Shown: positions 20,849-63,988 of the stretch, one piece after another | Numbering within the stretch: position 1 is the stretch's first letter | Layout of the letters: each line of letters opens with the position of its first letter | Assembly: GCA_947572385.1 (NCBI GenBank) | Contig: CANPBX010000002.1 | Location: 1-64,000 of the forward strand | Direction: 5' to 3' | DNA: 64,000 nucleotides | Source: an uncultured Clostridia bacterium | GTDB lineage: Bacteria; Bacillota; Clostridia; Oscillospirales; Acutalibacteraceae | Position numbers and translations under genes: made by a program | The notes under the pieces: generated by a model | Told to the model about the DNA's origin: nothing | What the model saw: the letters and a program-made list of their open reading frames with translations, nothing else | Databases searched by the model: none

Positions 20849-20860
20849 GGCGCGCAAAAC

Positions 20861-20900
20861 AAAAAGCTTATCCCCTCATCACTGGGGGGATAGGCTTTTT
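20861..20900. terminator. Bidirectional terminator between amidase and small-protein operon
   Basis: AAAAAGC-T-TATCCCC pairs with GGGGATA-GGCTTTTT around a short loop, with A and T runs on both sides. It can end the amidase mRNA and the convergent trio mRNA. Confidence 0.9.
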
Positions 20901-20929
20901 ATTGGGAGTGACGAAAACTTATTGTCTCT

Positions 20930-21082
20930 TTAGCGGGCCATGGGGGACAGCACCCAGAACATAGCCCGTTCCTTCTGGCCTGTTACCTGGAACGCGCCGG
21001 CCCTCTCCTGCACGAAGCGCTCATAATTTTCCACCTGGCGGCGGTTCATTGTATCGCGGATGATATTGTTGATCTTTTTCAT
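20930..21082 (-). CDS. Small protein of tandem paralog trio, copy A (50 aa)
   Basis: The 50-residue ORF begins MKKINNIIRDTMNRRQ and has the family core QERAGAFQVT followed by GQKERAMFW near its C-terminus. AAAGGAG lies 9 nt before the ATG. The core matches copy B with five synonymous and only three amino-acid-changing codons in 19, the pattern expected of a selected protein. There is no signal peptide or hydrophobic segment; the protein is probably cytoplasmic and helical. It is the last gene of the trio before the terminator. I do not recognise the family and assign no function. Confidence 0.82.
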   Translation of the reverse strand: MKKINNIIRDTMNRRQVENYERFVQERAGAFQVTGQKERAMFWVLSPMAR

Positions 21083-21155
21083 GGTGATATCTCCTTTCAG
21101 GCTGTATCTATTTTACTTCAGTTACTTCATTTTATCTTGATTTCACTTGCGGCTT

Positions 21156-21314
21156 TCAGGCGTTCATAGACCAGAACATGGCCTGCTCCTTCTGCCCTGT
21201 GACCTGGAAGACTCCGGCCTTCTCCTGGATGAATCGCTCATAGCTCTCGCTCTGGCGGCGGGTAACGGACTCACGGATGTTCTCGATGATGCTCTTCTTA
21301 TGATCGTATTTCAT
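21156..21314 (-). CDS. Small protein of tandem paralog trio, copy B (52 aa)
   Basis: The 52-residue ORF begins MKYDHKKSIIENIRE and has the family core QEKAGVFQVT followed by GQKEQAMFW, ending SMNA. AAAGGAG lies 8 nt upstream of the ATG; a longer in-frame reading would start inside the spacer without a ribosome site. Spacing to copies A and C is 73 and 63 bp with no terminator between, so the three genes are probably cotranscribed. Family and function unrecognised. Confidence 0.85.
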   Translation of the reverse strand: MKYDHKKSIIENIRESVTRRQSESYERFIQEKAGVFQVTGQKEQAMFWSMNA

Positions 21315-21377
21315 AATTATCTCTCCTTTGAATTTATAAATATTTTCCAAAAAATGTGTAAACGCTTTGTAAAGTTA

Positions 21378-21557
21378 CTACCGGGCCAGCAGACTCTGAC
21401 TCCAGAACATCGCCTGTTCCTTAGTCTCGGTCACCTGAAACACTCCGGCCCTCTCCTGCATGAACTGCTCAAAGCTCTCGGCCTGACGGTGAGCCATATA
21501 TATGTGGTTTAGGGCGTTCCTTCCGGTCTTCATGATGTTGTTAATGCTGTTCTTCAT
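21378..21557 (-). CDS. Small protein of tandem paralog trio, copy C (59 aa)
   Basis: The 59-residue ORF begins MKNSINNIMKTGRNALN and has the core QERAGVFQVT followed by ETKEQAMFW, ending SQSLLAR. GAGGAG lies about 8 nt upstream of the ATG. It is the promoter-proximal and most divergent member, with about 8 extra N-terminal residues and E-T replacing G-Q in the core. Upstream lie two copies of a 16-bp promoter element, the distal one a perfect consensus promoter, so the operon should be strongly transcribed. Function unknown. Confidence 0.82.
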   Translation of the reverse strand: MKNSINNIMKTGRNALNHIYMAHRQAESFEQFMQERAGVFQVTETKEQAMFWSQSLLAR

Positions 21558-21609: not shown

Positions 21610-21728
21610 CTATATTATAAATCAAACGCTTGTCGGGTTCAGCCCTCAATTCCGCAATAAGTGTTGAGTTTATAATTCTGTTCTCTGGAGCTTTCTGTCC
21701 CCGACCTTGTGACTATATTATAAATCAA
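21610..21728. repeat. 16-bp promoter element repeated 103 bp apart
   Basis: CTATATTATAAATCAA occurs exactly at 21610-21625 and 21713-21728. On the minus strand each copy carries TATAAT with a TTGATT just before it. The distal copy has a TTGACA at 17 bp; the proximal copy has only CTGAAC there. The pair may be tandem promoters or repeated binding sites for a regulator. Confidence 0.75.
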
Positions 21729-21745
21729 GTTTATAAAGTTGTCAA
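21717..21745 (-). promoter_or_regulatory. Predicted promoter of the small-protein trio
   Basis: On the minus strand TTGACA (21745-21740) and TATAAT (21722-21717) match both consensus hexamers exactly at 17-bp spacing. The mRNA would start near 21710, giving a leader of about 150 nt before copy C. Confidence 0.85.
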
Positions 21746-21812
21746 GGGTTTTTATAAAGAAATTTTCAAAAATTTTTGCAAATTTATAAATACACAAAAT
21801 ATCCGTCTCCGC

Positions 21813-21847: not shown

Positions 21848-22137
21848 GCATAATATCCTCAAAAACTGTGACGGGAAGAAATCGGTGCTTCCGGCCTTTC
21901 AGAGAGCCTGCGGACGGTGCGAGCAGGCAGCAGGACCGCCGCGTATACTGTTCCCCGAGTTGCCGCGCCCAACGCCCCATATGGGGTCAGTAAGTGCCGC
22001 CGTGTGGCGTCGTTACCCGCCCGGCCTTGTCAGAGGCACTGAGCAGTAAGAGCGGCCTGGCTGCTTTTACGAAATCCTGGGTGGTACCGCGAGTTTTTCG
22101 CCCCGGGCGCTTTGTAAAAAGCGTTCGGGGCTTTTCA
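21848..22137 (+). promoter_or_regulatory. T-box leader (tRNA-Leu sensing) of leuA
   Basis: The T-box core TGGGTGGTACCGCG lies at 22078-22091, preceded by about 230 nt of GC-rich structured leader with a long Stem I region, and followed by a terminator. The TGGT bulge would pair with an A discriminator base, as in tRNA-Leu. The leucine specificity is inferred from the downstream gene; I did not identify the specifier codon. Confidence 0.9.
22099..22136 (+). terminator. Leader terminator of the leuA T-box
   Basis: GCCCCG and CGCTTT pair with AAGCG and CGGGGC in a stem ending in T4. It lies between the T-box and the leuA ribosome site. Confidence 0.85.
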
Positions 22138-63829: not shown

Positions 63830-63895
63830 AAGCGAGTACGATTGCCAAATGGGTATTTAATGCCCTGATATGCGTTGAAGCGGGAGGTTGCGGCT

Positions 63896-63970
63896 ATGGG
63901 TCCAGGACATGGACTTGAGTTTGCGTTGCAGACTCGGCCGGTCATTTCCGTGGAGTATGTCCGATTTTAA
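63896..63970 (+). CDS. Possible 24-residue leader peptide
   Basis: The ATG at 63896 with GGGAGG 8 nt upstream opens a 24-codon frame (MGPGHGLEFALQTRPVISVEY and three more residues) ending at TAA 63970. A second ATG with AAGGA follows 18 bp later in the same frame. It may be a short leader ORF, or the remains of a longer start region. No family is recognised. Confidence 0.35.
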   Translation: MGPGHGLEFALQTRPVISVEYVRF

Positions 63971-63988
63971 ACCGGGCGAAGGAATCTG

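Follow-up and report, generated by a model that had tools for sequence, protein, structure and literature searches.

Three small genes of an Acutalibacter species lie in tandem behind a consensus promoter that is shared with other small-protein arrays of the genus; their proteins are under purifying selection, the number of copies varies between genomes, and the 3' untranslated region (UTR) carries a conserved element. We tentatively favour the view that the trio is this species' version of a genus-wide, promoter-defined small-protein operon, a repressible burst module that may combine RNA-binding proteins with a regulatory 3' RNA. The window referred to below is the whole stretch of DNA analysed, 64,000 nucleotides in length, and the features discussed are collected in Table 1. 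Orphan small proteins are common and usually offer no starting point. In this case, several families of gut Clostridia that can hardly be aligned are linked by one conserved promoter, which defines a regulon that can be searched for; in one species, the promoter is also found ahead of a gene for an ABC-type permease.

Three tandem genes under purifying selection

A preliminary description of the locus, made from the sequence alone, had reported three consecutive minus-strand ORFs with good ribosome-binding sites, and these are indeed present. The shared C-terminal core that it had pointed out is confirmed as RRQ..[SN][YF]E.F.QE[RK]AG.FQVT..KE.AMFW across copies A, B and C, with copy A carrying HRQ at the RRQ position; these three are the only copies of the family in their own genome. 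The claim that the protein is under selection also holds. Between the genome of the window and its nearest genome, G009, which supplied the orthologs, pooled dS is 0.143 and pooled dN 0.029 (ratio 0.20), while 16 cores compared in 120 pairs, which are not independent of one another, give a pS of 0.60 and a pN of 0.155. In the 19 codons of the A/B core, the count of three amino-acid-changing codons was correct, while the synonymous ones number six, not five. It is highly improbable that the ORFs are spurious and that the locus is an RNA gene with untranslated frames, as the related locus L116, which has no recognised ORF, might suggest: this would leave unexplained the low dN/dS, a pN far below pS, and Shine-Dalgarno (SD) sequences and open frames that are kept over many species.

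Table 1. Positions in the window of the genes, promoter elements and 3' features of the array
Feature	Position	Strand	Details
Intrinsic terminator hairpin and T run	20860..20897	-	amidase gene converges from the other strand
Conserved 3' UTR element AAGTTTTCGTCACTCCC	20904..20920	-	17 nt, C-rich end predicted unpaired
Small-protein gene, copy C	20930..21082	-	50 aa, SD AAAGGAG
Small-protein gene, copy B	21156..21314	-	52 aa from its ATG, SD AAAGGAGAG
Weak second promoter match	21291..21371	-	R2 13.7 bits, E 0.0033; A/B intergenic region into the start of copy B
Small-protein gene, copy A	21378..21557	-	59 aa, SD GAGAGGAGAG
-10-like stretch TTGATTTATAATA, second copy in leader	21613..21625	-	no good -35 ahead (by eye)
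Conserved promoter	21714..21796	-	TTGACA-17-TATAAT among TTTATAAA boxes
-10 TATAAT	21717-21722	-	spacer 17 bp
TTTATAAA box inside spacer	21730-21737	-	+8 from -35
-35 TTGACA	21740-21745	-	
TTTATAAA box next to -35	21751-21758	-	-13 from -35
Distal TTTATAAA box	21783-21790	-	-45 from -35

The proteins are hydrophilic, with GRAVY values of -0.60, -0.95 and -0.76 for copies A, B and C, respectively, values at odds with the hydrophobic, membrane-spanning toxin of a type I toxin-antitoxin system. The proteins of the arrays, about 55 residues long, are mostly basic, with a median pI of 9.87 (range 6.13-11.36) over 103 family proteins, 16 of 119 proteins having been excluded as chimeras, proteins with altered ends, duplicates or members of other families; not all of them are basic, as the pI in the window family goes down to 6.1. 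The predicted fold consists of one long and one short helix (mean pLDDT 69 for copy B of the window and 75 for its relative P0009). The structure models of the window family contain no beta-hairpin; such a hairpin in the proteins of other array types is our own reading of their sequences.

That the proteins belong to no recognised family was well founded, the copies passing no Pfam or NCBIfam cut-off. A scan of 99 family members at E 0.5 matched 27 Pfam families, with a best E of 0.0016 among the matches listed, and DUF1127 was not among the best 25 of the 27, nor was it found when the window copies were scanned singly against Pfam. RNA-binding families gave no credible match for the array-family proteins. 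In PHROGs, copy A had no match, while copy C and the relative P0007 reached best E values of 0.12 and 0.16; the PADLOC models of anti-phage defence returned no family for four proteins, copies A and C included, and the PDB sequences no match at E up to 10. Nothing credible was found in Pfam, NCBIfam, PHROGs, PADLOC or the PDB sequences for the window array or for the other arrays described below.

The promoter of the array

The consensus promoter described ahead of the trio is present. R2, a sequence model derived from nine promoters of other array types alone, ranks it as the best site in the 64 kb (54.6 bits, E 5.6e-16). Four of the six occurrences of TTTATAAA in the window are in the array locus, and the boxes are spaced at approximately 21 and 29-33 bp, close to two and three turns of the helix. 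The stretch TTGATTTATAATA is repeated, at 21613 and 21716. The proposal of a single operon ending at a bidirectional terminator was correct as regards the promoter and a terminator capable of acting on both strands; the second promoter-like site, before copy B, implies that the operon may have an internal start, and this site is a possible promoter of copy B.

The leader shows no sign of a structured 5' element or riboswitch, since its fold is no better than that of shuffled sequences (z +0.94), and a match to alpha_tmRNA (E 0.00023) is below the gathering score of that model. Between the two upstream boxes (window 21759-21782) lies an A/T-rich near-palindrome, AAATTTTTGAAAATTT, which may resemble a CodY box. 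Furthermore, in the arrays of G000, G003, G007, G009, G011 and G026, TTTATAAA is found a few bases before the SD of many, though not all, copies.

One promoter before different arrays across the genus

The 29 genomes of the genus were searched for two TTTATAAA boxes 13-33 bp apart, a promoter being called strict when TTGACA lies between the boxes. Paired boxes occur at 39 places in 16 genomes and the strict promoter at 17 places in 14 genomes. Six of these 17 precede window-type arrays, while the remaining 11 are found in eight genomes without the window family. Eight of the 11, one per genome, precede arrays in which other small proteins, of 49-71 aa, are encoded in tandem (sequence examples are ..SRRATAFERFAGEFADTHVSYQNINGFILP.., ..ADVFYVNVNGISAPVCR, ..RFANEQVDNDKAFLNVNGYVMSVRLPY and ..ANYAVVKGGLSPFQNGFFVA), and the other three, which have no array behind them, precede an ABC-type permease gene, the L116 unit and a likely gene-less stretch before the array of G006. 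The existence of a tandemly amplified, selected family of tiny genes behind a consensus promoter is supported, and diversification goes beyond what had been envisaged, with several sequence families behind the same promoter.

The architecture of the promoter is constant: in each of the 17 strict promoters the spacer measures 17 bp, one box lies at -13/-14 and another at +8 relative to the -35, and the -10 reads TATAAT in 15, TATACT in one and TATCAT in one. The distal box, at -43 to -46, is present in all 14 array promoters and in none of the three others (p 0.0015). Every one of the 14 genomes with a strict promoter has an array; arrays occur in 17 of the 29 genomes, and 12 have neither array nor strict promoter. 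The three array genomes without a strict promoter are G001 and G020, in both of which the contig ends inside the array, and G005, in which one box is shifted and the promoter and array, at the ends of two contigs, are joined by inference only. Since the other arrays were found via the promoter, the agreement between promoter and arrays is partly built in by ascertainment; its independent part is that six of the seven window-type arrays have the strict promoter, the seventh array being cut, and that eight of the 11 foreign places lead to arrays.

The proteins of the two groups may be related. An hhalign comparison of the window family with the other arrays gave a probability of 70% and an E of 4e-5 over 28 columns. 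A profile of 24 other-array proteins matches 12 of the 29 genomes (E 0.01), namely ten with arrays, G026 with a solo copy and G011 with a copy in a phage-like element; in 394 genomes of the order, few of which are from the genus, this second profile had a single match, to a genus member (E 0.001). The promoter itself gave no convincing site beyond the genus: six of 398 genomes of the taxonomic family matched, and of the two outside the genus, one site is apparently inside a coding gene and the other is unclear.

Two of the promoters without arrays deserve a separate mention. At L152 (G012 C398, 376-1228), a promoter lacking the distal box is followed by a short leader and an ABC permease gene (BPD_transp_1), which is a hint of a nutrient-linked regulon. 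At L116 (G027 C20, 442-602), the promoter is separated from a terminator by approximately 120 nt in which no ORF was recognised, and the unit is a candidate stand-alone small RNA.

Distribution of the window's family

Tandem copies of the window family occur in seven of the 29 Acutalibacter genomes (E 0.01), with two or three copies per array. Homologs that keep the core thus exist in other strains, and the array copies of these relatives are in frame. The protein database, searched with a profile, yielded 116 clusters, all of which lack a precomputed Pfam domain. Six family loci are in named records, three from Acutalibacter sp. isolates (1XD8-36 twice and 1XD8-33) and three from MAGs whose titles read Clostridiaceae, Oscillospiraceae or Clostridia. 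In wider sets, each containing few members of the genus, five of 300 genomes of the taxonomic family and nine of 394 of the order matched; in each set only three matches, all to genus members, are credible, and the others seem to be due to chance. Eight loci with weak matches in other genera or families do not extend this range: by eye, six resemble the N-termini of sugar kinases (KdgK-type) and the remaining two are unrelated ORFs. The window family was found only in the genus Acutalibacter among the genomes searched.

The copies appear to recombine, to judge from the sequence of copy 2 in G003, which begins like B and ends like C, and some database sequences (P0084, P0020) look like hybrids of neighbouring copies. 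In G007 and G026, an extra, diverged small gene stands in front of the array. A further database entry, P0116 (94 aa), joins what appears by eye to be a KduI-like N-terminus to the second half of the family core, and is either an assembly chimera or a real rearrangement. The open-access literature on small proteins or sRNAs of Acutalibacter, or on tandem paralogous small proteins in Oscillospiraceae, yielded no description of such a system.

Genomic neighbourhood

Pfam assigns the six neighbours of the array to Amidase_3, an iron-dependent repressor, LeuA, a sodium:solute symporter (SSF), a methyltransferase and a transglycosylase. The statement that nothing telling adjoins the genes was right in that inspection by eye of the ORFs of 18-25 kb revealed no recognisable gene for peptide export, for a processing enzyme or for a receptor; to it should be added the Amidase_3 gene, which is convergent in all seven array genomes. 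This gene is present in 27 of the 29 genus genomes (E 1e-40), and the array lies downstream of it, converging on it. Seven of these 27 genomes have a window-type array beside the gene, and in the other 20, of which 637-1100 bp downstream were covered, there is none. In a single-gene tree of moderate support (26 of the 27 amidases, G008 being left out), one branch (support 88/87) parts the seven array genomes from those with other-type arrays; it also holds two array-less genomes. Two RNA leaders were also seen in the window on the plus strand: a T-box leader of leuA at 21859-22108, which, at 75.1 bits against an Rfam gathering score of 93, is missed by a scan at the gathering score, and an S10-Clostridia ribosomal protein leader at 63866-63979 (40.2 bits).

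Peptide signals, stress proteins and sporulation proteins, all among the roles first suggested, are unsupported, given the gene content of 18-25 kb and the lack of any matched family. Leaderless multi-peptide bacteriocins are tandem paralogous small basic proteins without a signal peptide, and the array proteins are likewise tandem, paralogous, small, cationic, without a signal peptide and variable between species. Nonetheless, we consider it very unlikely that the trio encodes secreted peptides, whether tandem leaderless bacteriocins or pheromone precursors: no peptide transporter (ABC type included), immunity or processing gene was recognised beside the window array, judging from the Pfam assignments of the six neighbours, the proteins are hydrophilic, and their core is conserved across species and not diversified within the family.

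A conserved element in the 3' UTR

Between the last stop codon and the terminator, AAGTTTT(T)CGTCACTCCC occurs once per genome in all seven family genomes. The exact element is in none of the other 22 genomes of the genus, its distribution being that of the proteins (the same seven of 29). Over six genomes (G009, being almost a duplicate of the window, was excluded), 17 of 17 aligned columns are invariant, the T run differing by one, whereas invariance in the amidase gene is limited to 12 of 63 fourfold sites (Fisher p 5e-10); the terminator stems that follow change in sequence between species. The terminator region (20864-20932) folds with a z of -3.69. The C-rich end is predicted to be unpaired, with a mean probability of 0.86-0.94, the value for CACTCCC in the window being 0.86; in 11 other loci, the C-rich motif ranges from 0.41 to 0.96 and is not well exposed everywhere. 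An invariant, C-rich 3' element that is predicted to be unpaired is how a base-pairing RNA would look.

The window element ends in GUCACUCCC, which is predicted to be unpaired, and its pairing with SD sequences is only weakly above that of shuffled sequences (p 0.052). Pairing is weakly above shuffles in the six loci of the window type (p 0.03-0.13) and has p values of 0.05-0.06 in two other loci, while in nine of the 17 loci it is not above shuffles (p 0.14-0.86). Anti-SD mimicry as a common principle is not supported, being weak in eight loci and absent in nine. The motif CUCCUCCUC occurs in G006 and in G027 C32. Nor do the searches support a single 3' element common to all arrays: R3, a model of the 3' element of the other types, has no hits in the window at E 10 and none in 13 loci at E 1, from which it follows that no RNA part is shared in sequence across the system, and R1, having been trained on both groups, finds both 3' elements by construction. 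An 11-nt complement of the element is found outside it at four places in three of the seven genomes. Two of these sites fall within one gene that G007 and G011 both have, on its antisense strand, the other two share nothing, and none of the four is convincing as a target in trans.

These results bear on an explanation by protein alone, in which the small proteins, working as dose-dependent adaptors or inhibitors, would bind a protein target (an enzyme or a part of the polymerase or ribosome), the 3' element serving only to stabilise or process the mRNA. The core of 30 residues, strictly conserved next to a variable N-terminus, has the look of a binding surface, solo copies (G009 C32, G026 C14) occur with neither promoter nor 3' element, and the models show no homology between the 3' elements of one group and those of the other. 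DUF1127 proteins, the nearest analogue, are reported to be able to act via protein contacts as well (PMC12501420). Proteins alone would, however, leave unexplained why 17 nucleotides of the 3' UTR are invariant while proteins and terminator stems vary, and why L116 is a transcription unit without a recognised protein gene. Because the arrays have no common 3' element, their motifs are unevenly exposed and SD pairing is weak or absent, we hold this explanation, which is possible but well short of probable, level with the one that we favour.

Relatives in phage-like elements

Single-copy relatives of the array proteins stand just before an Amidase_2 endolysin gene in two phage-like elements, at G008 C72 (E 3.6e-6) and G011 C16 (E 6.8e-4), each of which also encodes a reverse transcriptase; the latter has an identified capsid gene. 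Together with the convergence of the window array on an Amidase_3 gene, this raises the idea that the arrays originate from, or act against, a small protein encoded in the lysis region of resident phages. We regard this as unlikely. The window family was not found in viral contigs (profile A1) or, with its relative P0007, in phage or plasmid records; the phage-type protein was not found in viral contigs or plasmids, and its matches in phage records are at chance level (E 0.7). Moreover, no array motif lies at the core amidase locus in the nine other-type genomes, of ten, for which this locus was covered (G006 gave no match), and the arrays have a consensus promoter of host type. The two elements, L156 (G008 C72) and L157 (G011 C16), share RVT_1, the array-related small protein and the Amidase_2 endolysin, with a CmpB-like membrane protein and DUF4376 identified by Pfam in L157 and by eye in L156; this layout, together with a 961-aa surface-like protein, presumably resembles a diversity-generating retroelement.

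A broader proposal, which we regard as doubtful, is a promoter-defined module of protein and RNA that diversifies rapidly: within one genus, the sequence of a repressible super-promoter would stay almost unchanged, different lineages would come to have different tandem proteins behind it, and the 3' RNA would serve as a second effector; the relatives in phage-like elements would then point to a host-phage arms-race locus. If the promoter is kept while proteins are replaced, regulation, and not the product, would be the conserved heritable unit.

A model for the operon

Returning to the repressible burst module, we propose that a factor binding TTTATAAA would repress the promoter, as two of the boxes lie alongside, or overlap with, the -35 and the spacer, an arrangement that suggests a repressor. 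Release of this repressor would probably lead to a burst of product, given that the promoter is of consensus type once free. The abundant small proteins, being basic, helical and hydrophilic, may then bind RNA, and the 3' end may be released as a base-pairing regulatory RNA. The predicted properties of the proteins fit binding to RNA or to protein and prove neither; among the roles listed in the preliminary description, that of an RNA- or protein-binding regulator is the one favoured, on indirect grounds. If the proteins are abundant regulators, as predicted, the locus would serve as a control module that evolves rapidly.

Comparison with known systems

The C-rich regions of RoxS and other sRNAs of Firmicutes are reported to pair with SD sequences (PMC10433868). 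The C-rich motif of the window, predicted to be unpaired near a terminator, is similar in this respect; however, RoxS is described there as a stand-alone RNA with shown targets, whereas the window motif belongs to the 3' UTR of an operon for small proteins, and no convincing target was found for it.

The nearest precedent, by analogy, is the CcaF1-CcsR operon. The CIN1 locus of Rhodobacter sphaeroides and other alphaproteobacteria encodes CcaF1, a small RNA-binding DUF1127 protein, together with the CcsR sRNAs (PMC10253847), and the alpha-r14 sRNAs carry a CCUCCUCCC motif (PMC10746234). The two systems have in common a small-protein gene followed by an RNA part on the same transcript, a Rho-independent terminator, tandem copies and a special promoter, and the RNA part of the window has a C-rich motif predicted to be unpaired. 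They differ in that the array proteins are unrelated, with no DUF1127 among the matches listed, and in that the protein genes are in tandem in the arrays whereas the RNAs are in tandem at CIN1. The anti-SD motif is weak or missing in many array loci, and the window was not found to contain a downstream sRNA with an unpaired CCUCCUCCC anti-SD motif. Finally, the array hosts are Clostridia, not alphaproteobacteria, and RNA binding is here a prediction. If the proteins and the 3' RNA do cooperate, the arrays would be an independent counterpart, in Firmicutes, of the protein-sRNA operons of alphaproteobacteria.
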